Made by a program: the position numbers and the translations under genes. From Saccharospirillaceae bacterium (GTDB lineage: Bacteria; Pseudomonadota; Gammaproteobacteria; Pseudomonadales; Oceanobacteraceae), in contig JAJOJJ010000003.1 of NCBI GenBank assembly GCA_021208685.1, positions 1 through 49,136 on the forward strand: a DNA stretch of 49,136 nt, in the 5' to 3' direction. Shown here in pieces: positions 22,068 through 47,020 of the stretch. Position 1 is the stretch's first letter. Each line of letters begins with the position of its first letter. Below the pieces are notes generated by a model. It made no database searches. It saw only the letters and a list, made by a program, of their open reading frames with translations, and was not told the origin of the DNA.

Positions 22068-23135
22068 TCAGGGTTTACCCGGTACGGTATTTTTATACTG
22101 CTCCCAGTGAGTGACGATTTCATTCACCACCACACTGCCCACCCGATAGGCACTGTCAACAGCCAGCGCCAAACCGGAATAATGTTCACCGGAATTGATC
22201 AGGTTTTCTGCAGCGCTGACCCCGGGATCCGGAATGGTGAAATTACTGGCGGTACGCAATACCATCAGGCGCTGTTCATCGGCCTTACCGGCGCGGGTTA
22301 AGTAGCGCAACGATTGAGCCGTGCCTGTGTCTTCCATTGCCGACGAGACAAATTCTCCCCGCCCTTCACTCCAGTAGCGGACCCAGCGATTGGCCCAGTC
22401 GTTGAGTAACTCGCCGTGCCAGAAGGTCATGCCCGACAAGGTATCGCCTTTCAGTACGAACGGCGGTTTCTGTGCATTCGGATATTGGGTAAACGCTTTA
22501 CGCTGTTCGCTCACCACCGGGTCATCACCCAGTCTGGTGTTCCGGGTCAGCTGAAACGCCCAATCGGTCAGGCCGGCATTCAGATGAAATACTTCGCCAT
22601 TATCCGGCGGACGCTTTTCCGGGTCCGGACCACTGCTGAACAACGGGAAATAGCCGTTATTCCAGCCCTCCGGTATTTCTCGTGCATCAATTTCATGGCC
22701 AAGATCACCATCGACTACCCATTCTGCCCAGGCCGCTGAGCCAATGGAGGCATCCTGAGGGTCAAACCCCGAAATGCCAGCCACCAGCCAGTAAGCCTTG
22801 CTCAGATCGAAACGGGGGTCCAGCCCCAGCGCCATAATGGCGGACGATGATTTGTTGGTACCCATACCCGTGACCATGCCCAGAACACCGGTTTCAGGGT
22901 TCAGGTACAGATCGTGATGGGAGTGCGGAAAGCCATACACCTGCGTCAGTTGCTGATTGGCCTTCCAGGTCTGAAATTCACCCGCCGCATCACCTTCGTC
23001 GTTACCGATTTCAAACATGGTGACCACCACCACCTTCACTTCAACCGGCGTGATCGCGTGCTCTTTTGTATCTGAGCAGGCGCCCAGCAGGCTGCTGCCG
23101 AGAAAGACCGACAGGGCTAATACATTTTTTTTCAT
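22068..23135 (-). CDS. NUP-family (purine nucleoside permease-like) lipoprotein
   Basis: This 355-residue protein has a lipoprotein signal with a lipobox (LLGAC, C20) and no membrane segments after it. It matches the NUP family named from yeast purine nucleoside permeases (VTGMGTNKSSSAIMALGLDPRFDLSKAYWL region, about residues 88-117, listed for position). The lack of transmembrane helices argues against a permease. The family has been linked to the nucleoside phosphorylase fold, so an enzyme that binds or cleaves nucleosides in the periplasm is as likely. It starts 16 bases after the adenosine deaminase gene, so they are co-transcribed. Confidence 0.75.
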   Translation of the reverse strand: MKKNVLALSVFLGSSLLGACSDTKEHAITPVEVKVVVVTMFEIGNDEGDAAGEFQTWKANQQLTQVYGFPHSHHDLYLNPETGVLGMVTGMGTNKSSSAIMALGLDPRFDLSKAYWLVAGISGFDPQDASIGSAAWAEWVVDGDLGHEIDAREIPEGWNNGYFPLFSSGPDPEKRPPDNGEVFHLNAGLTDWAFQLTRNTRLGDDPVVSEQRKAFTQYPNAQKPPFVLKGDTLSGMTFWHGELLNDWANRWVRYWSEGRGEFVSSAMEDTGTAQSLRYLTRAGKADEQRLMVLRTASNFTIPDPGVSAAENLINSGEHYSGLALAVDSAYRVGSVVVNEIVTHWEQYKNTVPGKP

Positions 23136-23151
23136 GCTGATTCCCGATTAT

Positions 23152-24570
23152 TTATTGAGAACAAAAGCCATAACGCTGACAGATAAAGCCATCGCTTCTG
23201 GGCATTGCTGCAGGTAACCCTTGCATACCCTGAGTGCGGAAATTCCGCTCAAAGGCATTCAGGCGTTTAGTTAAGGTATCGCGTAATGCGGCTTTGACCG
23301 GTGCCTCGACAAAGGCATGTTCAATCGAATTGTTGAGCAAAAGACGGATTTCTGCCCACGACAGATTAAACTCCGTCACCGCCACGAAATATTCATCGGT
23401 CATGTTTGATAACCACATGCCGCGGTCATCGGTCGATAACGTGACCGGAATGCCAAAGCGCAAATATTCCGGAAACGGATGATCCTTAAACTGATTGACG
23501 TAATTCAGTTTCATGTTGCTGATCAGATTAATTTCCACCAGATTCCGGCTGTTGCGCATGAGCAGCATGGTGTCCGGATCGGTGATCAGGTTAATTCCAT
23601 GGCCAATGCGTTCGGCGCCGATCAGCAGTGTGTCACGCACATGATGATTGGGCTCATCCACTTCTCCGGCGTGAATCGCCAGTGGAATCGCGGGGATATC
23701 CCGGCGCAGCTTACGCAACACGGGTAAAAAGCGCAGCGGGTAGCCTTTATCGTTATCTTCACGCCCAACCATATTAATGCCGGTGAACAGATCGCGGTTG
23801 CGGTGCACGAAGTGGTAAATCCATTCTAAATCCTGTTCAGCATCCGCAATAAAGCGCAACAGATAATATTGCATACGCACCGTAACCCCGGTGGCGATGG
23901 CATCCGCCTGTTGCAGACGCTGACGGAAAATACCGGCGACCGCATCCGGCTCTATCGGCTGACCATCCGGGGTCTGATAAAAACGGGTACCTTCCATGGT
24001 TTCCAGATAGATCAGCCCTTCTCGGCCAAATTCGCGCATATTCAGAAACAGCAGCTCGGCCATGATGAAAGGATTGCCGGTTAAATCCGCCAGACGCTGC
24101 CAGTGAGTCTGAAAAAATTCGTCGCGCCCTTCATGAGCTTTATCTAAAGCCAGACTGTTCATCCAGCCGGTTTTCTGTTCGCTGGTCAGATGTTCGAGTT
24201 TCTGGAATTCAGCCTTTTCACACGCAGGTAAGCGGTCATAGGTGGATTCCTGAATCGTGCGGAACAGCAACAGATACGGCGAAAATCCGAACATATCACC
24301 GCCCGGTTCACGGCAATTATTAATGCGTATTTTGGTGTAGTACTGGTAACCCCCATTTGTTTTTTTATCGGTAGCCAATGCATACCACCATTCGGGAAAA
24401 CCCGAACCACTCAGATGATTATGCAGATCACCGCCTTTGGGCATGGCATGCAGAAACTGATACAGCTGCGGCGCTGTGGCTGACGTACGGAATTCATCAA
24501 ACCAGTCCGCCGCTTTTACCGGCAGACCCAGCAGGCCCAGCATCAGACCAGCCAGTGGAAGATATTTCAT
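23152..24570 (-). CDS. Secreted adenosine deaminase (ADGF/ADA2-like)
   Basis: This 472-residue amidohydrolase converts adenosine to inosine and ammonia. It has a signal peptide (cleavage near VKA-ADW, residue 20), so it acts in the periplasm or outside. Zinc and catalytic motifs are present: DLHNHLSGS with H50/H52, IHAGE, GHG and STDD. The MPKGGDLHNH segment resembles ADGF-type enzymes. Four cysteines (C in NNCREPGG, PACEK and the C-terminal ICQRYGFCSQ) could form disulfides in the periplasm. I chose the ATG at 24570 because GGA lies eight bases upstream and a signal peptide follows. It sits between the TonB receptor and the NUP lipoprotein. Confidence 0.82.
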   Translation of the reverse strand: MKYLPLAGLMLGLLGLPVKAADWFDEFRTSATAPQLYQFLHAMPKGGDLHNHLSGSGFPEWWYALATDKKTNGGYQYYTKIRINNCREPGGDMFGFSPYLLLFRTIQESTYDRLPACEKAEFQKLEHLTSEQKTGWMNSLALDKAHEGRDEFFQTHWQRLADLTGNPFIMAELLFLNMREFGREGLIYLETMEGTRFYQTPDGQPIEPDAVAGIFRQRLQQADAIATGVTVRMQYYLLRFIADAEQDLEWIYHFVHRNRDLFTGINMVGREDNDKGYPLRFLPVLRKLRRDIPAIPLAIHAGEVDEPNHHVRDTLLIGAERIGHGINLITDPDTMLLMRNSRNLVEINLISNMKLNYVNQFKDHPFPEYLRFGIPVTLSTDDRGMWLSNMTDEYFVAVTEFNLSWAEIRLLLNNSIEHAFVEAPVKAALRDTLTKRLNAFERNFRTQGMQGLPAAMPRSDGFICQRYGFCSQ

Positions 24571-24596
24571 AAACAACATCCGACAAGTGACACCGT

Positions 24597-24624
24597 AAAA
24601 AAAAACGACAGCCCAAAGGCTGCC
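24597..24624 (-). terminator. Terminator or attenuator after the TonB receptor gene
   Basis: The minus strand has a CAGCC/GGCTG stem extended by one pair beyond a mismatch, followed by nine T. It lies between the receptor and the adenosine deaminase gene. It may partly end transcription, giving more receptor than enzyme. Confidence 0.7.
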
Positions 24625-24634
24625 GGTTCCTGAT

Positions 24635-26884
24635 TCAGAAGTATTTACTGGCTTCAATACCGTAGTAACGCGGTTCGTTGGTAAATGCCGTCATGTTGAG
24701 AAAGTCTATCGCGCCATCCGCCACGATGCGGTTGGTAATGTTGCGGCCCACCAGCGAAATATCGTACGCACTGGCGTAGTTTTCGTAGCCCAGTTTCACA
24801 CCACCGATCCAGCGTGACTCTGCAACAAATTCCGTGGACTCATAGAGGAAAATGTTGGATTCGCTGCGGTAGTTCCAGTCGGTGGATGCATTCAGGGAAC
24901 CACTTGCAACCGGGTAGCGATAGCTGAGAATGATGTTGGTCAGCCATTCCGGTGAACGCGGTACCGGGTTACCGTCGATACTGACCAGAGTGCGGTCGCC
25001 AAAAGCACCGGGAACCGTGGCAACAAACGGATCGGCTGACGTACAGCCCGGAGTACCGGAACACAGGTCGGTTGTCAGCGAGGCATCCTGAATTTCGGTG
25101 CGGTTGTAACTCATATTAAAGGTCAGGCGCAGTTGATCGGTCAGCTGCGCCGTCAGATCAGTTTCAACACCATAGCCCAGTGTTTTATCCGCATTGAGCA
25201 GCCGATTAACGTTGTCCGAACCACCGGTAGCGGTCAGCTGATGATCTTTAATGGTGTAGTAATAGGCCGTTGTATTCCAATGCGCACGGTTATCGAACAA
25301 CAGGGATTTGAAGCCGGTTTCAAACGAGGTAATGGTCTCGGTATCGGCCTTGGTCGTCACGCCGAAACGACCCAGCGTAGCGGGTCCGCGCGAGGCGGTT
25401 GCCAGCCGTGAATACACCGTCCAGTCGTCATTAAGATCGTAATTCCCCGCCAGTTCCCAGCTGAAATAACGGTCGTCATCCTCAATGCTGGCCGCTGCGG
25501 CAGCGGAAGGCGTACCCGGACGCACATCCAGTTCTTTGGTGTCCATGGTGTAACGCAAACCACCGGTTACCGACAATGCATCGGTAATGCCATACTCCGC
25601 CTGACCAAAAGCCGCCGCCGAGGTAGTAAGCTGCTCAACAAAGGTCATATTGGTCGCAGTGCCGGCATTATCGAAATCGACGGAACGTACGGTAATGTCC
25701 TCCTGAAAATAATACAGCCCGCCCTGATAAAACAGGTTGTCGTCATTACCGGCCAGACGCAACTCCTGTGTGAACTGATAATGATCATCCAGACCATCAC
25801 CCGAGGCCACGCTGAAAAATGCCTGCTGATTTGGCTGACCAATGGCTTCAGGTCCGCCCTGTACCCCACCATCAATGTCAGCCGAACTGAAGCTCGACAC
25901 TGTGTCATAACTGGTAACAGAGGTAACCGCCAGCGACGACGATATATCGTAGCCGACCTTGATGCTGCCGCCGGTATGATCCATTTCAAAGCCGCTGTCG
26001 GTGTAATCATGAGCCGCGCTGTTTATATCAAACCCAGGACGCAGACCTTCATGCCCTGGTGTAAAGGCGTTGGCATAAAATACCTGAGGCTGCCCGCCGT
26101 TCTGATGAAAACCGTGCAGTTTCGTCAGTATGCTTAAATCGGCTGATGGTTCTGCCAGGAATTGCAGGCGATACGCCAGCTCGTCGAAATCACCGAAATC
26201 ATCACCACGGGTGCCGGCATTTTCGTTATCGATCCAGGCATCACGCTTCTGATATTTCACCGCGGCCCGCGCCGCCATGGTATCGGATAAACCCGTACCG
26301 TACGCACCCTCAAAGGTCTGTGTGTTATGAGAGCCATATCCCAGACGACCATAGCCTTCCTCCACCTGCGACGGTTTTACCGAATCGACTTTAATCACAC
26401 CGGCGGTGGTGCTGCGGCCGAACAGGGTACCCTGTGGGCCTTTCAGTACTTCCACCTGCTCTACGTCGAACAGCGGAATACTTTTTAATACCGAGTTTTC
26501 CAGCGCAACATCGTCATAAATCAACGCCACCGGCTGCGTCGCATTCACATCAAAATCGTAGTTACCCAGACCACGGATATAAAACCGGGGCGACTGACGG
26601 CCATTGGACGATTCGATCTGCAGACTCGGTACACGCCCCGCCAGAGCACGGATATTTTCACCGGCACTGATCATCTCCTGCACGTATTCACCGCTGATCG
26701 GCGTTACGGCTGAAGGCACGTCAGACAGCGACTGCTCACGCTTCTGCGCGGTCACCATCACTTCTTCCAGAACCATACCATCGTTACTGTTTTCTTCTGC
26801 CCAGACCATTGCAGGTATGGCTGCACCGCTCAGACCGGCAATCACCAGACTCAGAGCCGAACGCTTAATCAGCTGATTTTTCAT
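24635..26884 (-). CDS. TonB-dependent outer-membrane receptor, probably for nucleosides
   Basis: This 749-residue receptor has a signal peptide (cleavage near VWA-EEN, about residue 29), a plug domain with the segment VEVLKGPQGTLFGRSTTAGV (about 141-160) and a beta-barrel that ends in phenylalanine (EASKYF). It belongs to the iron-siderophore/vitamin/carbohydrate TonB receptor family. The ligand is inferred from context: the following genes encode a secreted adenosine deaminase and a nucleoside-family lipoprotein. The start ATG at 26884 has GGTGG/GGA upstream and gives a normal signal peptide; the open frame continues 35 codons further. Confidence 0.85.
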   Translation of the reverse strand: MKNQLIKRSALSLVIAGLSGAAIPAMVWAEENSNDGMVLEEVMVTAQKREQSLSDVPSAVTPISGEYVQEMISAGENIRALAGRVPSLQIESSNGRQSPRFYIRGLGNYDFDVNATQPVALIYDDVALENSVLKSIPLFDVEQVEVLKGPQGTLFGRSTTAGVIKVDSVKPSQVEEGYGRLGYGSHNTQTFEGAYGTGLSDTMAARAAVKYQKRDAWIDNENAGTRGDDFGDFDELAYRLQFLAEPSADLSILTKLHGFHQNGGQPQVFYANAFTPGHEGLRPGFDINSAAHDYTDSGFEMDHTGGSIKVGYDISSSLAVTSVTSYDTVSSFSSADIDGGVQGGPEAIGQPNQQAFFSVASGDGLDDHYQFTQELRLAGNDDNLFYQGGLYYFQEDITVRSVDFDNAGTATNMTFVEQLTTSAAAFGQAEYGITDALSVTGGLRYTMDTKELDVRPGTPSAAAAASIEDDDRYFSWELAGNYDLNDDWTVYSRLATASRGPATLGRFGVTTKADTETITSFETGFKSLLFDNRAHWNTTAYYYTIKDHQLTATGGSDNVNRLLNADKTLGYGVETDLTAQLTDQLRLTFNMSYNRTEIQDASLTTDLCSGTPGCTSADPFVATVPGAFGDRTLVSIDGNPVPRSPEWLTNIILSYRYPVASGSLNASTDWNYRSESNIFLYESTEFVAESRWIGGVKLGYENYASAYDISLVGRNITNRIVADGAIDFLNMTAFTNEPRYYGIEASKYF

Positions 26885-27168
26885 CCCATTCCACCTTGCG
26901 TAATTTGTATAGACCCGCTGTGCAGCACACCCTTGAAATGGCAGCACCGGCTCGTTCTGAATATGAGCAAGAGCCCTGTAGCAACGCATATGCCATGAAA
27001 TTGCCCAAGCGGTCAGGAATAAATAAAGGCTGAAATTAAGATGAAATTGGCGCCTTTGCGTGTGCTCAATCCTCCGAATCCAATGAAAAAATACGAGCCA
27101 TTAAACCAGCACGGAGAAACCATACGGGTAAGCGACACTCCGGCCGGAAGGGCTGCTCATTAAAGAAT

Positions 27169-27184
27169 CTGTCCAATCGGTCAA
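27169..27184. promoter_or_regulatory. Degenerate RutR-like site upstream of the TonB receptor operon
   Basis: CTGTCCAATCGGTCAA matches 11 of 14 defined positions of the RutR consensus TTGACCAnnTGGTCAA. It is about 285 bases upstream of the receptor start, so a direct role needs an upstream promoter. Confidence 0.3.
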
Positions 27185-33485: not shown

Positions 33486-34688
33486 TTATTCAGTACCCGC
33501 CGAAAGCGGTTTCTCAGTTTGCAGCCAGAGAATCAGCTGCGTACGTTCATCGTCAGTCATCGCCGTCATATTCGCCAGAGGCATATAGCCGGTTTGCAGA
33601 GCACTGATTATCCGCTCTTTAAACTGCAGCAGTTGCGCCTCGCTGCCAAGCACAATACCGGCCGGTGCACTGGTAAACATGCTGCTGGTTGGCGATTCAC
33701 TGTGACACTCAGCGCAGCGCAACTGGGCAATATGCAGCGCCTGTGGGGCACTGATGAGCGTTTCACCCTGGACTAACTGCGGGGGACGCGGAGCCATGAC
33801 CGCCGCCAGTGCCAGCATCAGTACCAGTGCCACCACTAAAATCCAGGGTTTAAAAATTCCCTGAGTTTTCAGGTTAAAGAAATGACGGGCAAATGCACTG
33901 ATAAAACCGATAGCCGCCAGAATTAACCAGCCATACTCATGCCCATAGGTCATCGGATAATGGTTGCTGATCATGATAAAAATCAGCGGCAGGGTGAAAT
34001 AATTATTATGGGTAGAACGCAATTTAGCCAACTCGGCAAATTTCGCCTGCGGCTGCTCACCGGCTTCTACCGCACGGACCAGCTCACGCTGGGCCGGCAT
34101 AATACCAAAGAACACATTACCCGCCATAATGCTGCCAATTAACGCACCGACATGCAGGTAGGCCGCACGATCAGAGAAAATCTGATCCAGACCCCAGGCC
34201 GCCAACACCAGCAGGCTGTAAAGAACGATTGCGAATAATGTATTGTGCGCCCGCAACGGACTTTTAATTAAACCCTCATAAACCGCAAATCCACCGGCAA
34301 GAAATACCAGGCTGATCGCAATTGCCTGCCACTGGCTGAGTGCCATTTTAGCGGGATCAATCAGGTATTGATCCGCCCCCCAGTAGTACATCACCGACAG
34401 CAGAGTAAAACCGGTCAGCCAGGTGGTATAGGCTTCCCATTTAAACCAGTGCAGGGTTTGTGGCATTTTTTCCGGCCCTAACTGATATTTGGCAACCTCA
34501 TAAAAGCCGCCACCGTGAATAGCCCATAAGTCGCCTTTAATGCCTTTATCTTTTTTCCACTGCGGAGGCTCACGCAAACTGAGATCCAGCCAGACGAAAT
34601 AAAAAGAGGCACCAATCCAGGCGACACCGGCAATCACATGAAACCAGCGGAAGAACAAATTCAGCCACTCAAAGATATAGGCTTCCAT
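33486..34688 (-). CDS. puuD: PuuD, membrane urate hydroxylase with cytochrome c domain
   Basis: This 400-residue PuuD-type urate oxidase turns urate into 5-hydroxyisourate and passes electrons to its own C-terminal cytochrome c rather than to O2 directly. It has about eight membrane segments with N-terminal FFRWFHVIAGVAWIGASFYFVWLD (listed for position, about 12-35) and a C-terminal heme site CAECHS (about residue 333). Its start codon shares one base with the guaD stop (TGATG), so translation is coupled. It is the last gene of the purine operon and is convergent with the surface protein gene. Confidence 0.92.
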   Translation of the reverse strand: MEAYIFEWLNLFFRWFHVIAGVAWIGASFYFVWLDLSLREPPQWKKDKGIKGDLWAIHGGGFYEVAKYQLGPEKMPQTLHWFKWEAYTTWLTGFTLLSVMYYWGADQYLIDPAKMALSQWQAIAISLVFLAGGFAVYEGLIKSPLRAHNTLFAIVLYSLLVLAAWGLDQIFSDRAAYLHVGALIGSIMAGNVFFGIMPAQRELVRAVEAGEQPQAKFAELAKLRSTHNNYFTLPLIFIMISNHYPMTYGHEYGWLILAAIGFISAFARHFFNLKTQGIFKPWILVVALVLMLALAAVMAPRPPQLVQGETLISAPQALHIAQLRCAECHSESPTSSMFTSAPAGIVLGSEAQLLQFKERIISALQTGYMPLANMTAMTDDERTQLILWLQTEKPLSAGTE

Positions 34689-35995
34689 CAGCAGTGCCCC
34701 TCCGCTTTATCCCATTGTTTCTTGCCGGCCACCCAGGTTTCGGCAACGGCACGGTCATCACCCAGAATCATCAGGCTGAACAGGCTTTCATCCAGGGTTT
34801 TACAGATAGACTGACGACGTTTCATTAAATCGGTACAGCCCAGATCAAACACCACAAAATCGGCCTCTTTACCCGTCTCGAAATTGCCGATTTTATCGTC
34901 CAGTGACAGTGCTTTGGCATTGCCCAGCGTCATCATATAAAACGCTTTCTGAGCCGACAGGCTGCTGCCTTTTAACTGACAGATTTTGTAAGCTTCATTC
35001 ATGGTTTGCAGCATCGAGAAGCTGGTGCCGCCACCGACATCGGTGGCCACACTGACGGTAACCGGATGCGGCTGATGTTCCAGCGAAAATAAACCACTGC
35101 CTAAAAACAGGTTGGACGTCGGGCAGAATGAAATCTTGCTGTTGGTTTCACTCATGCGCCGGTAGTCTTCATCATCCAGATGCACACAGTGGGCGAAGAT
35201 ACTGCGGTCACCCAGCAGACCGTAATGATCGTACACATCCAGATAACTTTTACGCTCCGGGAATAATTCTTTCACAAAGGCTATTTCATCCAGATTCTCA
35301 GCCAGATGAGTCTGCATATAAACGCCCGGATTAGCGGCCAGTAATTCCCCGGCTGCGGCTAATTGTTCTGCTGTTGAGGTAATGGCAAAACGCGGGGTAA
35401 TGGCGTACAGCTGACGGCCATGATTGTGCCAGCGGTCAATCAGCGCCTGAGAGTCAGCCACCGAGCTTTCAACGGTGTCGCACAAACCTTCCGGTGCGTG
35501 ACGATTCATCATCACCTTGCCGCAAATCATACGGGTATTGCGTTTTTCGCTTTCAGCAAAGAAAGCATCGACCGAACCTTTATGCACCGTACCGAAAACA
35601 AGAGCCGTAGTGGTGCCGTTTTTCAGCAGTTCCGTTAAGAAAAATCCGGCGGCATCGCTGGCCACAGCCGGATCGGCAAAATTCAGTTCCGTGGGAAAAG
35701 TGTAGTTGTTCAGCCAATCCAGTAACTGTTCGCCATAGGATGCGATAACATCCACCTGCGGATAATGCACATGGGTATCGATCAGGCCGGGGGTCAGCAG
35801 TGCATTGTCGTAGCGGGTTACCGGCAGTTGCGGATAATGCGCCAACAATTTTCCGGCATCCTCGCAGGCAACAACCGTACCGTTCGAGGCATCCACAACC
35901 AATAAACCGTCTGCAAAGAAATGCGCCACCGGCTCATCAGAGGCGGATGTATGGGTGTAATGCAAAATGGCGGCGCGATAACCCTGATAATTCAT
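34688..35995 (-). CDS. guaD: Guanine deaminase
   Basis: This 435-residue amidohydrolase turns guanine into xanthine and ammonia, feeding xanthine dehydrogenase. Zinc-binding motifs are LLTPGLIDTHVHYPQ (about residues 65-79), the conserved MQTHLAE and FAHCVHL segments, and a late VATDVGGG with the catalytic aspartate. Length fits GuaD (439 in E. coli). It lies 22 bases after allA and is translationally coupled to puuD. Confidence 0.93.
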   Translation of the reverse strand: MNYQGYRAAILHYTHTSASDEPVAHFFADGLLVVDASNGTVVACEDAGKLLAHYPQLPVTRYDNALLTPGLIDTHVHYPQVDVIASYGEQLLDWLNNYTFPTELNFADPAVASDAAGFFLTELLKNGTTTALVFGTVHKGSVDAFFAESEKRNTRMICGKVMMNRHAPEGLCDTVESSVADSQALIDRWHNHGRQLYAITPRFAITSTAEQLAAAGELLAANPGVYMQTHLAENLDEIAFVKELFPERKSYLDVYDHYGLLGDRSIFAHCVHLDDEDYRRMSETNSKISFCPTSNLFLGSGLFSLEHQPHPVTVSVATDVGGGTSFSMLQTMNEAYKICQLKGSSLSAQKAFYMMTLGNAKALSLDDKIGNFETGKEADFVVFDLGCTDLMKRRQSICKTLDESLFSLMILGDDRAVAETWVAGKKQWDKAEGHC

Positions 35996-36017
35996 TTCAA
36001 TATCTCTTATTCAATAA

Positions 36018-36542
36018 TTAATCAGCCAGATTAATGGTGATGTTCCAGTCTTCCGGAAAGAAAAATTCCTGCAGATTATTGCCCGGCCCAAGCCGGTCGA
36101 CGATCCAGAAATCACTGATTTTATTCAAGGCCAGCAATGGGTGATGCCAGCAATTAGCCTTGTAGTTCACTCCTTCTCCGTCACTGGCGAGAAAGAGTTT
36201 AAAGCTGGACGGGTCAGGAATTTCCGCACCATCCACGAGGTGACTGAGGCACACCAATACCAGATAGGGTTCATCCGACGATGGCAGAAAGGCCTGACTG
36301 CCCAGCGGATGGCGCTCCATCATGCCAATATTCATCGGCAGGGTTCGCGGTTGCGCACGGAAAATACTGATAATGCCCTGACCTGTTTGCGGGGCATCAC
36401 CCAGCGTAACCTGCGCCAGATTATGGTAACGCTCGGTGGTACCGTTATTAATCATAATCGGTTTACCGCGCACACTGATCAGCTCACCGAAGGGCGCAAA
36501 GCTTTCGGCGGTTAAAGGTTCAGGCTGCAGAATGAATTCCAT
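36018..36542 (-). CDS. allA: Ureidoglycolate lyase
   Basis: This 174-residue AllA-type enzyme splits ureidoglycolate into glyoxylate and urea. The N-terminal LTAESFAPFGELI and the C-terminal WHHPLLAL and DFWIVDRLGPGNNLQEFFF segments are family hallmarks. It completes the purine ring breakdown after allantoicase. It starts 11 bases after uraH in the same operon. The glyoxylate and urea it produces would need enzymes outside the window. Confidence 0.92.
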   Translation of the reverse strand: MEFILQPEPLTAESFAPFGELISVRGKPIMINNGTTERYHNLAQVTLGDAPQTGQGIISIFRAQPRTLPMNIGMMERHPLGSQAFLPSSDEPYLVLVCLSHLVDGAEIPDPSSFKLFLASDGEGVNYKANCWHHPLLALNKISDFWIVDRLGPGNNLQEFFFPEDWNITINLAD

Positions 36543-36553
36543 GACCGGATTCC

Positions 36554-36913
36554 TCAGGAGCCACGATAGGTGGAGAAACCATTGGCCGACAGCAACAGCG
36601 GCACATGATAGTGCTCCGTCGGCGTATCGATCTCAAACAGAATATCGACCTGCGGGTACAGGGTACTCAGGCCCTGTGCGGCATAATAAGCACCGGTCGC
36701 GAATTCCAGTTTGTATAAACCGGCCTCACGCTCACGCGAACCCAGCCAGTCGATAATCCGGCCATCATCATTGGTCGCGGCACTGGCCATCTCCTGCCAT
36801 TGCGCGTCGGCAACAGAGCCGGTTGCCGATTTGAATAAACGCACCCCGACCCCAATCGCCGGACGGCCACGCTGGGTGTCGAGAATATGTGTGGTAATTA
36901 CACTTCTCTGCAT
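36554..36913 (-). CDS. uraH: 5-hydroxyisourate hydrolase
   Basis: This 119-residue transthyretin-like enzyme hydrolyses 5-hydroxyisourate, the PuuD product, to OHCU. Family marks are the N-terminal THILDTQRGRPAIGV and the C-terminal STYRGS ending. I chose the start at 36913 because GAGGAG lies six bases upstream; the open frame extends nine codons further. It starts 10 bases after the uraD stop. Confidence 0.92.
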   Translation of the reverse strand: MQRSVITTHILDTQRGRPAIGVGVRLFKSATGSVADAQWQEMASAATNDDGRIIDWLGSREREAGLYKLEFATGAYYAAQGLSTLYPQVDILFEIDTPTEHYHVPLLLSANGFSTYRGS

Positions 36914-36923
36914 AAACTGCTCC

Positions 36924-37436
36924 TCACTGTGCCAGACCAAGAATCTTTTTAATACGCAGATCCGTGATCATCATCTGATTCTCAGCGGCATTCCGGATTT
37001 CCTGCTCACGGCTGTTTGGCAGTCGCTGTTCCAGCAACGCCAGCATTTGCTCAGCGCTCTTTCCGGTGGCAAAGACGATAAAAATAAAACCAAATTTTTC
37101 CTCGTAGGCGCTGTTACCGGCGGCCAGCGCCTGCAACACATCGTCCGCAGCTCCTGCTGCACCACTTTGCTCGTGCGAGGCAATGGCTTTGGTATTGGCA
37201 TATTTAGCGCGCAGCGAATTTACATCACCAATTTTCGGGTGAGCGGTAAAAGCCTGCAGAAAATCCGCCTCGGCCATTGTCCACCAGAATTCATTGGCTT
37301 TGTGCAGCAATTCATCGACCGATGCATACGGACGCGCGGCGACCACTCTGGCAACCCAGCGCTCTGCAGCACAGCAACTGGTAAAGGCAGCGGTGGCATC
37401 GGCCACCGTCAGGTTATTCAGTTCATCCAGCGTCAT
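36924..37436 (-). CDS. uraD: OHCU decarboxylase
   Basis: This 170-residue enzyme decarboxylates OHCU to S-allantoin. The motif FTAHPKIGDVNSLRAKY (about residues 63-79) and the later YEEKFGFIFIVFATGKSA (about 110-127) are characteristic. The start overlaps the allantoicase stop by four bases (ATGA). Confidence 0.93.
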   Translation of the reverse strand: MTLDELNNLTVADATAAFTSCCAAERWVARVVAARPYASVDELLHKANEFWWTMAEADFLQAFTAHPKIGDVNSLRAKYANTKAIASHEQSGAAGAADDVLQALAAGNSAYEEKFGFIFIVFATGKSAEQMLALLEQRLPNSREQEIRNAAENQMMITDLRIKKILGLAQ

Positions 37437-38428
37437 TTGGCGTCCTTTAAGAATCCATACACGCGTAAGCGGCTGATACCGCCATCCGGGTACATATTCA
37501 GTTTGATATGGGTAAAGGTCTGCTCACCACTGATCACTTCGTCTCTGTAGAAATGTTCGGCATCGGCACTCAGTTTCTGACGTCCGATCACCGGCATCCA
37601 GTCTGAGGTTTCCTGCGGATGCTGACCTTCCGGCATGGTAATGCCCAGCAGTGAAAATCCATCCGGGTAATTACCTTTAAAGTGTGCAGTATCCACCACC
37701 ACTTTTTTAATGCTGCCGGTTCCGGCCAGTTTAATAATAATCCAGTCGCATTCACGGCCACCGCGACGACGTTTGGTTTCCCAGCCATCGCCCATATTCA
37801 CACCACGGTCCGGCATGATCAGGTTACTCATGGAGCTGAAAAACATATCGCTGCATTCCACCGGGCGAGCACCATTTTTCATAAAGGCCAGATCCACAGG
37901 CTCACCTGGCAGGAACCAGTGATTGTCCATGACCGCTTCGCCATACACACGCAGGCGGGCAATACCACCATCAGGGAAACTGTTGATACGCAGGTGCGTC
38001 CATACACCAGCGGAATCGCAATCAATAAAATTATTGCTGTCCGGCTGAACATCCTGCTGCGGTACTACCATGGTCCACTCAGTGCTGTCATCCGGTGCCG
38101 TTTTGCTGTTGCAGGCCTCAATCGATACCTGCTTCGGCGCATTTCCGGCAAAAAATCGGGTGCAGACATTAAATCCACGGATTTTTCCCTGAGTTCCCAG
38201 TTTAAGAATGGCCCAGTCATAACCCACAACCCGTTTACGGCGGCTTTCCCAGCCATCCATCCATTTGCCGCGATCGGTATATTTTCCGTCGATAAACACC
38301 GGAGCTTCCGGTTTAATCAGATTTTCCATCTCGGCAAAGAAATCATCACTGCAGCTAAGAACCTGACCTCCCAAACGGCGGTTTGCAAGGTCAATCCATT
38401 CACTGTAAGGATGCACTTCGTTTTTCAT
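37433..38428 (-). CDS. alc: Allantoicase
   Basis: This 331-residue enzyme hydrolyses allantoate to ureidoglycolate and urea. It shows the duplicated domain typical of allantoicase, each half with a GWESRRKR/GWETKRRR segment (about residues 59 and 223) and a paired CDWIIIKLAG/YDWAILKLGT strand. It starts about 67 bases after xdhC, across a hairpin. No allantoinase gene (allantoin to allantoate) is present in the window, so this step must be encoded elsewhere. Confidence 0.94.
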   Translation of the reverse strand: MKNEVHPYSEWIDLANRRLGGQVLSCSDDFFAEMENLIKPEAPVFIDGKYTDRGKWMDGWESRRKRVVGYDWAILKLGTQGKIRGFNVCTRFFAGNAPKQVSIEACNSKTAPDDSTEWTMVVPQQDVQPDSNNFIDCDSAGVWTHLRINSFPDGGIARLRVYGEAVMDNHWFLPGEPVDLAFMKNGARPVECSDMFFSSMSNLIMPDRGVNMGDGWETKRRRGGRECDWIIIKLAGTGSIKKVVVDTAHFKGNYPDGFSLLGITMPEGQHPQETSDWMPVIGRQKLSADAEHFYRDEVISGEQTFTHIKLNMYPDGGISRLRVYGFLKDAK

Positions 38429-38458
38429 AGTATTCTCAACATTATCAGACGAATAATT

Positions 38459-38480
38459 CTGACGATGATCAGATCGTCAG
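38459..38480 (-). terminator. Hairpin between xdhC and alc
   Basis: CTGACGAT and ATCGTCAG form a perfect 8-base stem with a 6-base loop in the 67-base xdhC-alc gap. On the minus strand it is followed by AATTATTCG, so only a weak terminator is likely; it may lower or uncouple expression of the downstream half of the operon. Confidence 0.45.
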
Positions 38481-38495
38481 GCTATTAAAGATGAC

Positions 38496-39401
38496 TTACA
38501 GGCTGATGTCTGATGACGCCGGTGCATCACCGGTCAGCCCTTCCTGCAATTGTTTCCAACTAAGACCTTTGCGACGGCTTTTATCGGCAGACATTCTGGC
38601 TGATGCAGCGGCCGTTTTACGTGCCAGCAACTGCGCGGCAACAGAAACCGCGACTTCCATGGGCAATTTACCCCCCACTTCCGCCAGGCCAATGGGCATG
38701 GTCAGCCGTGACCGCTGGTCGGCGCTCAATCCTGCATGCTGCAAACGCAGGGCAAATCGTTCTGTTTTGGTGGCCGAGCCAATACAACCGATGAATGCAA
38801 AATCATCCCGACTCAATGCGGCCTGCAATACATCGAAATCCAGCTGATGATTATGCGTCAGAACCACCAGCTCACTGCCAGCCGGGAGCCCGGCGATAAT
38901 ACTGACCGGATCGGCCAGACAGCGGCAATCAATATTGTCAGCAAGATGATCCGCTGATGGAAACTGTTCAGGACGGCTATCCACCCAGATAACGGGCTGT
39001 TCGAGTCCGCCAAGAATATTCATCAGCGCTTTGGCCACATGCCCGGCACCAAATACCACCAGAGGAGCCGCTTCCAGCACAAACATTTCAAGCAGCACGG
39101 TGACACTGCCGCCACAGCACTGACCGGCTTTGGCCGCTAAGGGAATTTTCTCTGTTTTCTGCAGCGAAAATTCAGTACCCGAAAGGGCATGGTCAGAAAG
39201 CCATTGCCGTGCTTTGTGAATTAATTGAAATTCAAGCTGACCACCGCCCAGAGTGTCAAACTGATCGTGCGCAGTAATCACCATTTTACTGCCGGGATCA
39301 CGCGGCACAGAACCTGCGCTGCCCATCACAGTCGCAATCACATAGGATTCGCGGCGTTGCTGGCAACGGGCAATGGCGTCATACCAACGCACAAATTTCA
39401 T
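38496..39401 (-). CDS. xdhC: XdhC, xanthine dehydrogenase maturation protein
   Basis: This 302-residue XdhC protein binds molybdenum cofactor, helps sulfurate it and inserts it into XdhB. Family segments include GSAGSVPRDPGSKMV, the CCGG site (QCCGGSVTVLLE) and a nucleotide-binding domain with VVFGAGHVAKAL. The start at 39401 has GGAG eight bases upstream and overlaps the XdhB stop by four bases; the open frame extends seven codons further. Confidence 0.93.
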   Translation of the reverse strand: MKFVRWYDAIARCQQRRESYVIATVMGSAGSVPRDPGSKMVITAHDQFDTLGGGQLEFQLIHKARQWLSDHALSGTEFSLQKTEKIPLAAKAGQCCGGSVTVLLEMFVLEAAPLVVFGAGHVAKALMNILGGLEQPVIWVDSRPEQFPSADHLADNIDCRCLADPVSIIAGLPAGSELVVLTHNHQLDFDVLQAALSRDDFAFIGCIGSATKTERFALRLQHAGLSADQRSRLTMPIGLAEVGGKLPMEVAVSVAAQLLARKTAAASARMSADKSRRKGLSWKQLQEGLTGDAPASSDISL

Positions 39402-41758
39402 GGCCGGATCTCCTGCTGGCAAAACATCACGGCATTCAATACCCGTTCCGGGGTAGCAGGTGTATCCAGCGGCGGGCTGATTTTATAATCCGCCACACTG
39501 GCGACCGCGTCACGCAGAGCACACCACACCGCAATACCATGCATAAATGGCGGTTCACCAACGGCTTTTGAGTTATAGATCGTATCTTCGGCGTTAGCCC
39601 GATCAAACAATTGCACGGTAAAGTGTTCAGGAATATCAACGGACGTCGGGATTTTATACGTCGCCGCCGAGTTGGATTGCAGGCGCCCTTTGTCGTCCCA
39701 CAACAGTTCTTCTGTGGTTAACCAACCCATTCCCTGAATAAACGCCCCTTCAATCTGGCCAATATCAATTGCCGGATTCAGCGAGCGGCCAACATCGTGC
39801 AAAATATCAGCACGCAGCACTTTATACTCGCCCGTCAGGGTATCAATTTCCACTTCGGCGCAGCAGGCACCAAAAGCGTAATAAAAGAACGGACGGCCAT
39901 TGGCAGTATCGCGGTTGTAATGAATTTTCGGCGTGGCGTAATAGCCCGTGGTCGAGAGTGATACGCGGTTCTGGTAAGCCAGGGTGACAAAATCGGCAAA
40001 GGAAATCCACTGCGCGCTGTCCTCATTCGCCCCGATCACGACATGATTATTCATAAAGCGCACGTCAACGGCATTCACCTGAAAATGCTGCTGAGCAAAC
40101 TGCACCAGACGCGATTTAAGAATCTGACAGGCATTCTGTGCTGCTTTACCATTCAAATCAGAGCCGGAAGACGCGGCCGTTGGCGAGGTGTTCGGCACCT
40201 TATCCGTCGCGGTGGCACTGGCCTGAACCATATCAATGTCGATATCAAATTCATGGGCAACCACCTGCGCCACTTTAGTGAATAATCCCTGACCCATTTC
40301 AGTGCCACCGTGGTTCAGATGAACGGAGCCATCGGTATAAATATGCACCAGTGCACCGGCCTGATTTAAAAACTGAATGGTGAATGAGATTCCAAAACGA
40401 ATCGGTGTTAATGCCAGGCCGCGCTTTTTCCAGCGATGATCCCTATTAAATTCTGCAATTGCAGTGCGGCGGGCACGATAGTCACAATCATGCTCCAGCT
40501 GGGCCACCAATTCCGGCAGATAAAAATCTTCAATCGGCTGACCATAATGGGTACTGCCGCCATCGCGGTAAAAATTAATTTTGCGCACATCCAGCGGATC
40601 TTTACCCACTTTACGCGCTATATCATCCAGCATGGCTTCGGCAAAAATCATCCCCTGCGGTCCGCCAAACCCCCGATAGGCGGTATTGGATACGGTATTG
40701 GTTTTACAGCGATGACCGATGACCCGCGCATTATTCAGATCGTAGGCGTTATCGACATGAAACATCGCACGATCAACAATGGCGTCGGATAAATCCGGTG
40801 AATATCCGCAAAAACCGGCCAGCTCAATGTCAGCGCCCAGAATTTTTCCGTTCTCATCAATGCCCAGATGATAGCGGTTGTAAAAATCATGGCGCTTGCC
40901 GGTCAGGACCATATCATCCTGACGGTCAAGTCGCATTTTCACCGGACGGTTCAGGCGCTGGGCAAAAACCGAGGCAATACACCCCCACTGCGCAGCCTGT
41001 GTCTCTTTACCACCAAAGCCGCCGCCCATGCGCCGCACTTCAACCTGCACATGATTGATCGGCACATCAAGTACTTCAGCAACCAGTTTCTGTACTTCTG
41101 ACGGATGCTGACTGGAGCAATACAATTTAATACCGCCGTCTTCGGCTGGCAGGGCGTAGCTGATCTGGCCTTCCAGATAAAAATGCTCCTGACCTTTTAC
41201 ATACAGTTCACCGCTCATCTGTATCGGAGCGTTCTGAACAGCCATCCTGGCATTGCCCTTCTGCATACTGTGCGCAGGACGGACAAAGGCGTTTTGTTGT
41301 AATGCCTCTTTAATCGTCAGCAATGCGGGCTGTTCTTCATAGCGCACCTGCGCCAGCAACACGGCGCGCTTTGCCTGTTCGAAGCTTTCGGCAACCACGG
41401 CAAATAAAGCCTGACCGTGAAATTCCACCACGCCATCGGCAAAAATCGGGTCACCTTTAAAAACCGGGCCAATGTCTTTTTCGCCGGGAATATCATCCAG
41501 TGTAATCACATCGACCACACCCGGCGCATTGCGCACGGCGGTTAAATCGAGTGACAGAATTTTTCCGTGAGCGATGGTACTTTTGCCGACAGCAGCAAAT
41601 AAGGTTCCGGCTGATTCCGGCATATCATCAATGTACGTCGCGGTGCCCAGCACATGTTTTTCGGCGCTTTCATGTGCGAGTTTACTGCCGCTTTTACCTT
41701 TTGCCGGACGCTGACGACGCGCTTCCCAGGGGGTTACTTTAGAAGAAACGTGGCTCAT
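39398..41758 (-). CDS. xdhB: Xanthine dehydrogenase, molybdopterin-binding subunit
   Basis: This 786-residue catalytic subunit oxidises hypoxanthine and xanthine to urate. The molybdenum-site segment VRRMGGGFGGKETQAAQWGC (about residues 238-257), the RGFGGPQG motif (about 348-355) and the C-terminal VGEPPFMHG with the catalytic glutamate are all present. It overlaps both neighbours by four bases (ATGA), so the three xdh genes are tightly coupled. Confidence 0.95.
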   Translation of the reverse strand: MSHVSSKVTPWEARRQRPAKGKSGSKLAHESAEKHVLGTATYIDDMPESAGTLFAAVGKSTIAHGKILSLDLTAVRNAPGVVDVITLDDIPGEKDIGPVFKGDPIFADGVVEFHGQALFAVVAESFEQAKRAVLLAQVRYEEQPALLTIKEALQQNAFVRPAHSMQKGNARMAVQNAPIQMSGELYVKGQEHFYLEGQISYALPAEDGGIKLYCSSQHPSEVQKLVAEVLDVPINHVQVEVRRMGGGFGGKETQAAQWGCIASVFAQRLNRPVKMRLDRQDDMVLTGKRHDFYNRYHLGIDENGKILGADIELAGFCGYSPDLSDAIVDRAMFHVDNAYDLNNARVIGHRCKTNTVSNTAYRGFGGPQGMIFAEAMLDDIARKVGKDPLDVRKINFYRDGGSTHYGQPIEDFYLPELVAQLEHDCDYRARRTAIAEFNRDHRWKKRGLALTPIRFGISFTIQFLNQAGALVHIYTDGSVHLNHGGTEMGQGLFTKVAQVVAHEFDIDIDMVQASATATDKVPNTSPTAASSGSDLNGKAAQNACQILKSRLVQFAQQHFQVNAVDVRFMNNHVVIGANEDSAQWISFADFVTLAYQNRVSLSTTGYYATPKIHYNRDTANGRPFFYYAFGACCAEVEIDTLTGEYKVLRADILHDVGRSLNPAIDIGQIEGAFIQGMGWLTTEELLWDDKGRLQSNSAATYKIPTSVDIPEHFTVQLFDRANAEDTIYNSKAVGEPPFMHGIAVWCALRDAVASVADYKISPPLDTPATPERVLNAVMFCQQEIRP

Positions 41759-43215
41759 GCTGCATCTCCTGCCTGGCCGGCGGTTAATTCCAGATAGCTT
41801 TTCAGCAACAGGTTACGCGTAACCTGCAGGCGGTATTCTTTGCTGGCGCGGACATCCGACAGCGGCTGATAATCCTGTCCGATTGAATTCGCAGCCTGTA
41901 AAAAGGTATTTTCAGAAAATGGCTGGCCAATTAATGCCTGTTCCGTTTTCAACGCACGTAATGGGGTCGCGGCCACACCACCGCAGGCCAGACGTGCCTG
42001 TTCAATAATGCCGTTCTGCACGTCCAGATACAGGGCAAACATCACCGCGGAAATATCATCGTCGTAACGCTTACTGATTTTATGCAGCGTCAGCGATTCA
42101 CTGCTCTGCAATGTCTTTATGCGAATGGCGCGCAAATATTCACCGGGTTGCAGTACGGTCTGTTTATACCCCAGATAAAAATCATCAATGGCAACGTCGC
42201 GGCGGCCATGGTTTCCATCAATTTCCAGCGTGGCATTCAAAGCTAAAAAAGCGGGGGGCGTATCACCAATCGGTGAAGCATTAGCAATATTGCCCCCCAA
42301 AGTGCCCATATTGCGGATCTGGCGTGAGCCAATTCGATGCAAGAGCTGAGCAAACGAAGGAAAAAGATCAGCCAGCTGATGTTCAGCCTGACTGTAGGTA
42401 ACACCGGCTCCCAGCCACAACTGCCCGCCTTGCTCCTGTGTCTGAGCAAGGGTTGTGATGCGGTTAAGACAAATGATGGTGTCGAATTGTTTAAAGCGCT
42501 GGGTAATTTCCAGTCCGATATCGGTACCACCTGCCCACAGGCAGGCCTCCGGATATTCCCGCAACAGAGCTTTCAGCTGCTCTTCGGTTAACGGCATAAA
42601 TAAACGACGGCCATCAACCTCCTGCAACGCCTGCGGTGATGTGGGCGATACATTTTCCGCCTGTGGATTAAAGGTTTGCACACCACTGCGGGCAGAAATA
42701 TCACGCACATCACAGACCGGCAGTTCTGCCATTTTATGGGCCGCTTCGATAATCGGCCGGTAACCGGTACAGCGGCACAGGTTGCCAGACAATGCGGCGT
42801 GAATCTGCTCATCGGTTAATGCGCTCTGCTGCGCATGCAGACCCGCCTGCTGATACAGGTTGGCCAGCGACATAACAAATCCCGGAGTACAGAATCCGCA
42901 TTGCGAACCGTGGCAATCGACCATCGCCTGCTGGGCCGGATGCAACTGCCCGGCACGGCCAATACCGGAAGGGGTCAACAGGTAACGCTCATGCGCATTG
43001 GCCATTAATGCAATGCAGGCATTCAGTGTGCGGTACTCAATACCACGCTCTGTCATTTCGCCCAGCATCAGTGTGCAGGCACCGCAATCACCCGCGGCAC
43101 AACCTTCTTTTGCATCAGGCTGCATCATCGTGGTGCGCAGATATTTCAGAATGGTACAATTTGGATCAATTTTATTGTCTTCAATCCAGCGACCGTTTAG
43201 GTTAAATCGAATCAC
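41755..43215 (-). CDS. xdhA: Xanthine dehydrogenase, iron-sulfur/FAD subunit
   Basis: This 486-residue subunit carries two 2Fe-2S clusters and FAD. Cluster one is bound by C39, C44, C47 and C67, cluster two by C106, C109, C147 and C149 (CGFCTPG and NLCRCTGYRPI). The FAD domain has RNMGTLGGNIANASPIGD (about 309-326). The open frame runs on to 43437, but the family begins at the MIRFxLNG position, so I chose the GTG at 43215, with AGG about seven bases upstream. The extra 74 codons have no homology and contain the RutR-like operator. It is the first gene of the operon. Confidence 0.9.
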   Translation of the reverse strand: MIRFNLNGRWIEDNKIDPNCTILKYLRTTMMQPDAKEGCAAGDCGACTLMLGEMTERGIEYRTLNACIALMANAHERYLLTPSGIGRAGQLHPAQQAMVDCHGSQCGFCTPGFVMSLANLYQQAGLHAQQSALTDEQIHAALSGNLCRCTGYRPIIEAAHKMAELPVCDVRDISARSGVQTFNPQAENVSPTSPQALQEVDGRRLFMPLTEEQLKALLREYPEACLWAGGTDIGLEITQRFKQFDTIICLNRITTLAQTQEQGGQLWLGAGVTYSQAEHQLADLFPSFAQLLHRIGSRQIRNMGTLGGNIANASPIGDTPPAFLALNATLEIDGNHGRRDVAIDDFYLGYKQTVLQPGEYLRAIRIKTLQSSESLTLHKISKRYDDDISAVMFALYLDVQNGIIEQARLACGGVAATPLRALKTEQALIGQPFSENTFLQAANSIGQDYQPLSDVRASKEYRLQVTRNLLLKSYLELTAGQAGDAA

Positions 43216-43351
43216 GCTTACACCTGTTTTCTGCCCGACAGCTCTGTTGAACGGCGCCGCTTTCACGCCGTTGTGGCGAATGTGCGGCGGCATCGCCCGA
43301 CAGCGCTGTATTTCAGTAGAGAGTTCTGTCCGGAGAATGCTTTGCAATTTC

Positions 43352-43367
43352 CTGACCAACTGGTCAA
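43352..43367. promoter_or_regulatory. RutR-like operator 1, xdhA side
   Basis: CTGACCAACTGGTCAA matches 13 of 14 defined positions of the RutR consensus TTGACCAnnTGGTCAA. It lies about 137 bases upstream of the xdhA start codon in the divergent xdhA/ABC-transporter region. Confidence 0.7.
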
Positions 43368-43429
43368 GCATATAACAAAACATGCCGGAATGTGCAGATG
43401 CAGTATGTGGCAAGCTAATTGCTAATGGC

Positions 43430-43445
43430 TTGTCCAAGTGGTCAG
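43430..43445. promoter_or_regulatory. RutR-like operator 2, transporter side
   Basis: TTGTCCAAGTGGTCAG matches 12 of 14 defined consensus positions. It lies 22 bases upstream of the GTG start of the ATPase gene, just before its ribosome binding site, where a bound repressor could block transcription. Confidence 0.6.
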
Positions 43446-46090: not shown

Positions 46091-46093
46091 ACC

Positions 46094-47020
46094 ATGGATA
46101 TCGATTTAATTACTAACATTCTGTTTGCAACCTTCAAGACCGGTACTCCGCTTATTCTGATTGCACTGGGCGAGATGGTGTGCGAAAAATCCGGCGTTCT
46201 GAACCTGGGTCAGGAAGGTATGCTGCTGGTGGGCGCGGTGGTCGGTTTTATTGCGGCCTCAGTCACCGGCAATTATTTTCTGGCAACCTTCTGCGCCATA
46301 TTTGCCGGTATGGGCATGGCCTTTCTGTTTGGTTATCTGTCAATCACACTCGCGTCCAATCAGGTGGCAACGGGTCTGGCACTGACCATTTTTGGTGGCG
46401 GTCTGAGTGCTTTTCTCGGCACCAATTATATCGGTATCGGTCTGGAGGGCATTCAGGTCTGGTCGGTTCCGCTGCTCAGCGATATTCCGGTCATCGGTAA
46501 AGTGCTGTTCCAGCATGACCCGTTGGTGTATTTAACGCTGGCATTATTTGCGCTGGTCTTTTGGGTATTCCGCAGCACCCGTCTGGGGTTAAAAATCCGC
46601 GCGGTTGGTGAAAATCCGGAAGCGGCCAATGCCATCGGTATTAATGTGCAGCAGATCCGTTTTATGGCTGTGCTTTTTGGTGGCGCCATGACCGGTCTGG
46701 CCGGTGCGTATTTATCCCTGGTCTACACCCCGATGTGGAGTGACGGCATGTCAGCAGGACGAGGCTGGATTGCCTTATCACTGGTGGTATTTGCCAGCTG
46801 GAAAGCCGAACGTATTCTGCTGGGCGCTTATCTGTTTGGTTTTGCCAGCATTCTGCATCTGGTATTGCAAGGCACACGCTTTGAAGTTCCGCCAAATATT
46901 ATGGCCATGCTGCCTTATGTGGCGACCATTATTGTGCTGGTCTGGCTGTCATCCGATGCCATTAAAACCAAAATGAGTGCACCTAAGTCTATTGGCCAGC
47001 CGTATCGGCCACTGGCTTAA
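46094..47020 (+). CDS. Nucleoside ABC transporter permease 2
   Basis: This 308-residue permease (YufQ/NupC type) has about eight membrane segments. Characteristic segments are VLNLGQEGMLLVGAVVGF, ITLASNQVATGLALTIFGGGL and GENPEAANAIGINV. It starts three bases after the permease 1 stop. Together they form the channel for the ATPase. A stable hairpin lies just downstream. Confidence 0.88.
   Translation: MDIDLITNILFATFKTGTPLILIALGEMVCEKSGVLNLGQEGMLLVGAVVGFIAASVTGNYFLATFCAIFAGMGMAFLFGYLSITLASNQVATGLALTIFGGGLSAFLGTNYIGIGLEGIQVWSVPLLSDIPVIGKVLFQHDPLVYLTLALFALVFWVFRSTRLGLKIRAVGENPEAANAIGINVQQIRFMAVLFGGAMTGLAGAYLSLVYTPMWSDGMSAGRGWIALSLVVFASWKAERILLGAYLFGFASILHLVLQGTRFEVPPNIMAMLPYVATIIVLVWLSSDAIKTKMSAPKSIGQPYRPLA

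Follow-up and report, generated by a model that had tools for sequence, protein, structure and literature searches.

A candidate purine-nucleoside utilisation locus combining a TonB-dependent receptor, a secreted deaminase and a NUP lipoprotein

How might a bacterium gather purine nucleosides that are scarce outside the cell, and what would become of them behind the outer membrane? The question is raised by three neighbouring genes in a 49,136-nucleotide stretch of DNA (hereafter the window) from a Saccharospirillaceae bacterium (assembly GCA_021208685.1, contig JAJOJJ010000003.1, positions 1 to 49,136), which encode a TonB-dependent receptor, a secreted ADGF-type adenosine deaminase and a lipoprotein of the NUP family. 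We propose that they belong to a purine-nucleoside utilisation locus, in which import by the receptor, deamination in the periplasm, cleavage by NUP and purine catabolism follow one another, and we put the probability of this reading at roughly 70%. An earlier, sequence-only reading of the same DNA had suggested nucleoside scavenging, and the analysis largely supports it.

Three neighbouring genes and their recurrence in other genomes

The three genes lie side by side on the minus strand in the open reading frame (ORF) listing of the window, and all their Pfam scores exceed the cut-offs, which confirms the three-gene observation and the families first assigned to it. The receptor gene (24635..26884) encodes 749 aa from the ATG at 26884, with the frame open to 26989 (24635-26989, 784 aa), and matches the TonB plug (Plug, 64.1 bits) and barrel (TonB_dep_Rec, 89.3 bits) models. 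The deaminase gene (23152..24657; PF00962, A_deaminase, 118.6 bits against a cut-off of 27) counts 501 aa from a TTG; the likelier start is the ATG at 24579 or 24570, where by eye a typical signal peptide begins. A gap of 16 bases separates it from the NUP gene (22068..23135, 355 aa; PF06516, 374.7 bits against 27). An SDR gene (Pfam) and a transketolase-like ORF (by eye) flank the three genes; the latter, at 27558-29609, diverges from the receptor gene. The suggestion that they form one operon stands only in part: an intrinsic-terminator-like hairpin followed by nine T (24606..24625, minus strand) lies between receptor and deaminase. In 6 kb there are 7 such sites, where shuffles give 6.1 expected; this one contains 6 G-C pairs, and no other has so long a T run. 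The layout is therefore that of a receptor gene and a deaminase-NUP pair with, at most, read-through linking them. The receptor can thus be expressed by itself, and the other two genes through read-through or from a start of their own.

The co-occurrence of the three families was borne out in other genomes, and their linkage is not lost in all relatives. The exact receptor-ADGF-NUP order recurs in Aestuariicella hydrocarbonica (67, 64 and 69% identity), in Microbulbifer species and a Pseudomonadales metagenome-assembled genome (MAG). Neighbourhood counts refer to the best 80 of 492 relatives from a contig scan, and are not independent events because these include repeated records (for example L047/L122 and L204/L101) and sister species. 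A TonB receptor lies within 6 kb of NUP in 68 of the 80 loci, on the same strand in 64, against about 0.06 expected per such stretch by a crude estimate from the 17 receptor candidates found in 4.0 Mb. Same-strand receptors comprise 19 of the window's subfamily, 44 of another subfamily and 2 others, one locus being counted twice. ADGF of at least 45% identity is found within 9 kb of NUP on either strand in 30/80 loci, and receptor and ADGF lie on the same strand in 24/80, 9 of these with the window's receptor subfamily. The second receptor subfamily gives no blastp match to the window receptor at E 1e-3, nor does the host encode a close homologue of it (best E 4e-7). Its members are accompanied by DUF3450, ExbB, ExbD, TonB and TPR genes before NUP in L047, L061, L064, L105, L111, L121 and other loci. 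At L061:1751-9303 (likewise in L047, L064, L105, L111 and L121) the set DUF3450-ExbB-ExbB-ExbD-TonB-TPR separates NUP from ADGF and the receptor, as though the locus carried an energiser of its own; in L061, Pfam checks cover four of these genes, and the short ExbB and ExbD were identified by eye only.

NUP itself is patchily distributed. Counting the host, it occurs in 5 of 369 genomes of the class, 4 of 55 relatives, 4 of 44 family genomes and 26 of 398 genomes of the phylum (25 above the cut-off), and in 0 of 8 other species of the host genus. The 31 stretches fetched cover the NUP matches of the class, relative, phylum and family scans, leaving aside the window and a single match below the cut-off. 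Of the 44 family genomes, 4 encode a close ADGF (E <= 1e-30), the identical four that carry NUP, which by arithmetic, with descent ignored, is one arrangement in 135,751. Together with the recurrence of the gene order, this coincidence indicates more than chance.

Predicted fold of NUP and the accompanying deaminases

NUP begins with MKKNVLALSVFLGSSLLGACSD, by eye a signal peptide with a lipobox. Its structural model consists of one N-terminal helix (residues 4-18) and otherwise a soluble alpha/beta fold (pLDDT 93.7); we reject a permease, as the model has no membrane-spanning segments beyond the signal helix. The predicted fold belongs to the superfamily of 5'-methylthioadenosine/S-adenosylhomocysteine nucleosidase (MTAN) and nucleoside phosphorylase-I, with MTAN closest, and the 49 better rows of the fold search are hydrolases by title (MTAN, futalosine hydrolase). 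In the alignment, E53 and E268 are invariant and in register with the catalytic glutamates of MTAN, the one at E53 being that which activates water. Judged by the MTAN catalytic residues Glu12, Glu174 and Asp197, NUP is not an MTAN proper: Asn298 replaces the aspartate, the position being Asn in 70 and Asp in 7 of 79 family rows. Compared with MTAN, including the periplasmic enzyme of Aeromonas hydrophila (5b7q), NUP is about 120 residues longer and does not match PF01048, in the case of the window protein up to E 10; only one of four NUPs tried, that of L036, gave a match (E 0.17, 11.7 bits against a cut-off of 25.1). Alignment by hhalign failed with trimeric proteins of the purine nucleoside phosphorylase (PNP) type (P 0.58) and with one DeoD (P 0.12, out of register). 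Asp298 was considered as a mark of ADGF-less loci and dropped: the 7 Asp rows have no ADGF nearby, yet all are distant NUPs, so the idea is confounded by descent.

Structure prediction yielded a nucleosidase fold with its active site in register. Where the sequence-only reading left NUP as a binding or cleaving protein rather than a helical permease, fold and register favour cleaving over both binding and transport. We propose that NUP is a hydrolytic periplasmic purine nucleosidase of MTAN fold, in which E53 would activate water, E268 would hold the ribose hydroxyls and R294, S297 and N298 would face the base. The asparagine in place of the MTAN aspartate suggests 6-oxopurine nucleosides (inosine, guanosine) as substrates, a preference that would explain a deaminase acting first. 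A second, more distant NUP is present in the same locus in L084, L086, L098, L114, L116, L127, L130 and L142, in several of them with the motif MTNMESQ and RTxSNPSM, perhaps as a paralogue with another substrate. At L208:7760-8961 the NUP frame is broken into two overlapping ORFs next to an intact receptor.

The HxH, HAGE, GHG and TDD motifs of the deaminase are invariant in 8 of 8 aligned sequences. The description as an ADGF-type secreted deaminase holds for the predicted secretion and for the intact PF00962 motifs, and not for membership of the ADGF/ADA2 subfamily TIGR01431 (93.5 bits against 315); ADGF-type here means secreted and similar. ADGF is one of three deaminase types that occur near NUP; the others are a distantly ADGF-like protein (the distant type) and a TRZ/ATZ-type amidohydrolase. 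If only proteins at least 35% identical to that of L204 count as the amidohydrolase, the 80 loci divide into 29 with ADGF alone, 13 with the distant type alone, 15 with the amidohydrolase alone, 2 with two types and 21 without any of the three; ADGF and the amidohydrolase occur together in 0/80. Without that limit at least one type is present in 72/80 and two types in 10/80, and ADGF meets the amidohydrolase in L097, L098 and L104. Strict mutual exclusion fails on these three loci, and we claim only that the two are seldom together: a single deaminase type per locus is a rule, not a law. At L204:11296-12699 a TRZ/ATZ-type amidohydrolase with a signal-like N-terminus (by eye) lies opposite the receptor-permease-ribokinase-NUP genes, and may substitute for ADGF in Halieaceae. 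By a crude test, the N-terminus is hydrophobic in 87/97 NUP, 26/32 ADGF and 11/16 amidohydrolase proteins, and in 23/32 found with the distant-type query, which also picks up ADGF; this compares with 0/28 for cytoplasmic-type ADA, 2/12 for AGT and 2/6 for XdhB, and a value of 6/14 for AllC marks the test as noisy.

Purine catabolism, transport genes and operator-like sites

The sequence-only reading had the product of the three genes feed a purine catabolism operon nearby. Profile searches place these genes on the minus strand at 33486..43437, which puts them some 7 to 17 kb away from the receptor gene. They encode urate oxidase (33486), guanine deaminase (34688), ureidoglycolate lyase (36018), HIU hydrolase (36554), OHCU decarboxylase (36924), allantoicase (37433), XdhC (38496) and the xanthine dehydrogenase subunits (39398 and 41755). 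On the plus strand, an ABC transporter with an ATPase and two permeases (43468..47020) is akin to that near NUP in L060 and L063, where in L063 it comes with a PnrA/Bmp binding protein. NUP lies within xdh genes in L059 and L060, ends an xdh/uricase set in L055 and is found about 5 to 9 kb from xdh in L048-L050; with the RutR-type operator-like sites shared in the window, these arrangements support the link to purine catabolism.

The host encodes one NUP and one PNP_UDP_1 protein, which scores as a 5'-methylthioinosine (MTI) phosphorylase, and its genome gives no MTAN match. Its NCS2 purine/uracil permeases, two clear (331 and 175 bits) and one borderline (27.2 against 27), are on other contigs. 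Within 8 kb of NUP on the same strand, an NCS2 permease is found in 24/80 loci, ribokinase in 10/80 and a DMT-type permease in 10/80; an AzgA-type permease is near NUP on the same strand in 10/80 and on the opposite strand in 12. The corresponding numbers in 24 distant loci (NUP <50% identical) are 0 for NCS2, ribokinase and the DMT-type permease and 2 for AzgA. Free ribose is a product of a nucleoside hydrolase. The ribokinase of L204 exceeds its cut-off (TIGR02152, 323 against 299.65), and for the adjacent permease Ureide_permease is a better match than Sugar_transport, so that this protein may carry either ribose or a derivative of a purine.

A scan with what we take to be the RutR consensus, allowing up to 3 mismatches, finds 8 sites in the window against 2.2 expected, a number reached in 0 of 100 shuffles. 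Two are upstream of the receptor (27001..27016 and 27169..27184, 3 mismatches each), two are by xdh and the ABC transporter, and four lie elsewhere. The site at 43352..43367 (1 mismatch) falls in the N-terminal extension of the xdh ORF and is probably upstream of the true xdh start, because the first domain begins at residue 80; that at 43430..43445 (2 mismatches) lies in the divergent region between xdh and ABC genes. The core TGNCCANNNGGTCA occurs in the window only at the two receptor and two xdh/ABC sites, with 0.14 matches expected, and is post hoc for the window, as it was derived from these hits. In 111 relatives' loci (2.15 Mb) there are 36 sites with at most 2 mismatches against 5.0 expected, and 8 with at most 1 against 0.33; core-type sites number 14 against 5.0, with 8 against 0.2 near the starts of purine or receptor genes, a target list chosen after the first scan of the relatives. 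A RutR-like TetR regulator (TetR_C_3; 48167..48862, plus strand) stands at the window end, and its closest kin seen (81% and 73% identity) directly adjoin NUP in L061 and L064. Scoring 185.6 bits against 368 for the RutR equivalog TIGR03613, it is related to RutR and not RutR itself. From these sites we infer that a shared RutR-like repressor may control both the locus and the purine genes.

Between ABC transporter and regulator lies a gene for an outer-membrane-like protein of 248 aa (47283-48029) that may be a nucleoside channel; we do not claim a Tsx-like channel, as DUF5020 scores 29 bits, below its cut-off of 36.7, and the model has a pLDDT of 41. Another neighbour (29865-33308) encodes a 1147 aa protein with repeats resembling, by eye, thrombospondin type 3 (calcium-binding) repeats.

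Receptor cargo, rival explanations and known systems

In the route that we propose, the receptor would carry purine nucleosides over the outer membrane when their outside concentration is low. The secreted deaminase, going by its family activity and intact active site, would convert adenosine to inosine in the periplasm, and NUP, facing the periplasm, would hydrolyse the purine nucleosides. The free base could enter through an inner-membrane purine permease, either NCS2 encoded elsewhere in the genome or the window's ABC transporter, and in some relatives the ribose would fall to ribokinase and the DMT-type permease. Hypoxanthine and guanine would then pass to the products of the xdh, guanine deaminase and uricase genes, under the shared RutR-like repressor presumed to act at the putative sites.

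The receptor itself matches no model of a known equivalog (BtuB, siderophore, heme) at its cut-off: TIGR01783 is best (117.2 against 223.5), the B12 models give 42.9 against 836 and 35.7 against 599.7, and we reject its identification as a known-equivalog B12, heme or siderophore receptor on these curated cut-offs. Searches for a Fur box or riboswitch in control of the receptor gave no match; the only weak Rfam row, Hrs13 (20 bits against 52), lies over the hairpin and is taken as chance. A receptor-based search finds the protein in 22 of 390 genomes of the order, host included. The closest relatives seen are those of Aestuariicella (67%), G992 (60%) and a Pseudomonadales MAG (59%), each followed by a secreted-type adenosine deaminase. 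In the receptor tree the window's receptor forms a clade with those of L073, L138 and L197 (100/100), and such a deaminase again follows each. At L197:6235-13753, the receptor gene is followed by those for a secreted-type ADA and a DeoD-type phosphorylase, and genes for BtuF, an FecCD-type permease and an ATPase lie immediately upstream of it; the DeoD phosphorylase seems to replace NUP there. NUP is present in the fetched stretches of 8 of 21 receptor relatives and absent from 13, short contigs (L206, L212, L216) among them, and the NUP label changes 6 times on the tree against 11.3 in shuffles, with L208 and its split NUP scored as NUP-less. From these counts and the content of L197, the receptor subfamily is not nucleoside-only, and its NUP linkage is clustered.

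Several observations weigh against the proposed route. The hairpin weakens the case for a single operon, 13 of 21 receptor relatives lack NUP in the fetched stretch, and L197, the closest of these, has its BtuFCD-like genes. Within the family, the window-type receptor occurs in 1 of 44 genomes (the host only); of the other three NUP-bearing members, two have a receptor of the other subfamily and one has none nearby. The sites upstream of the receptor are weak, and those adjacent to receptors in relatives all belong to the other subfamily, with 0 at window-type receptors. Nucleosides are small enough to pass through porins, which leaves the need for TonB unexplained. For NUP, hhalign against MTAN profiles is weak (P 0.0029, probability 10.6%), a sequence search of the PDB found no relative, and the 24 distant loci mostly lack the partners (receptor 2, ADGF 0). 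Hairpin, NUP-less relatives, BtuFCD-like genes and the siteless window-type receptors of relatives speak for a rival in which only the ADGF-NUP pair handles nucleosides and the receptor is a neighbour with other cargo (cobalamin, a siderophore, an unknown organic compound), as does L062, where ADGF and NUP overlap and no receptor was found in the fetched 20 kb. We consider this unlikely, given receptors of two subfamilies near NUP in 68/80 loci, the deaminase following all four members of the window's receptor clade, receptor-upstream sites that resemble the xdh sites in the window, the empty riboswitch and Fur box searches and the sub-cut-off equivalog scores.

The remaining alternatives concern the chemistry of NUP. 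That its true substrates are modified nucleosides (5'-methylthioadenosine, 5'-deoxyadenosine or S-adenosylhomocysteine) would agree with MTAN as the closest fold, with a host that has MTI phosphorylase and no MTAN match, and with the amidohydrolase of some ADGF-less loci, which scores, below cut-offs, against models of 5'-deoxyadenosine and 5'-methylthioadenosine/S-adenosylhomocysteine deaminases; the ribokinase linkage fits plain ribose, and the window's guanine deaminase and purine degradation set fit bulk purines, which makes this improbable in our view. A phosphorylase making ribose-1-phosphate in the periplasm is quite improbable, since the best fold matches are hydrolases by title, the invariant E53 sits at the water-activating glutamate of MTAN, and ribokinase, a user of free ribose, is linked in 10/80 loci. 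That NUP only binds nucleosides for an ABC transporter, or is the permease of its family name, can be argued from its being a lipoprotein and adjoining a PnrA/Bmp-type transporter in L063; set against an enzyme fold, invariant catalytic residues and a model with no membrane segments beyond the signal helix, it is very improbable.

Among the known systems closest to the proposed locus is the rus locus of Bacteroides thetaiotaomicron, which, reportedly from work of Glowacki and colleagues in 2020, combines a TonB-dependent receptor, a nucleoside-cleaving enzyme, a ribose permease and ribokinase, is built like a polysaccharide utilisation locus, and is said to use a SusC/SusD pair and IUNH-type nucleoside hydrolases. 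The two are alike in joining a TonB-dependent receptor with a nucleoside-cleaving enzyme, ribose permease and ribokinase. They differ in that the window has a NUP/MTAN-fold enzyme, a secreted deaminase and purine nitrogen catabolism, and no SusD partner: no ORF lies between the three genes and none for SusD in the flanks, with no SusD model search made of the remaining genome. NUP may also be likened, by description and not by sequence, to a purine nucleosidase of Ochrobactrum anthropi, said by Ogawa and colleagues (2001) to be a secreted protein of about 360 aa that hydrolyses purine nucleosides. Tsx of enterobacteria likewise gives nucleosides entry through the outer membrane, as a passive channel and not a TonB-driven one.

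Nucleosides released by algae are a source of nitrogen and carbon, and marine bacteria use them (PMC8027193, PMC9870897); the window's gene set does not occur in those passages of the two papers. The words nucleoside, purine, nucleotide and adenosine are absent from PMC3400609, on marine TonB transporters, and no described system with this gene set appears in the titles or abstract openings of the open-licence papers listed by the searches. The NUP of Candida albicans, of the same family by name alone and described as a permease, lets a yeast adenine auxotroph use adenosine and, unlike a CNT carrier, confers no sensitivity to the adenosine analogue toyocamycin, which its authors read as narrower transport (passages of PMC9431476). 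As given there, these growth data would also fit a secreted nucleosidase feeding adenine.

We give even chances to a wider proposition with two parts: that Proteobacteria hold a modular TonB-dependent purine-nucleoside locus whose parts can be exchanged, drawing on two subfamilies of receptor, three types of deaminase, either NUP or a DeoD phosphorylase, importers for purine bases and ribose and, in some cases, an ExbB/ExbD/TonB set of its own, and that the whole NUP family, the fungal members included, consists of secreted purine nucleosidases. If so, the Candida protein would feed yeast adenine freed outside the cell and not carry adenosine in, and the name of the NUP family, counted as a transporter, for example as COG5042 in a passage of PMC2847192, would be corrected. 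Uptake driven by TonB, with deamination and cleavage in the periplasm, would account for the way in which some bacteria obtain nucleosides, and would give a function to receptors that automatic annotation names only TonB-dependent receptors.

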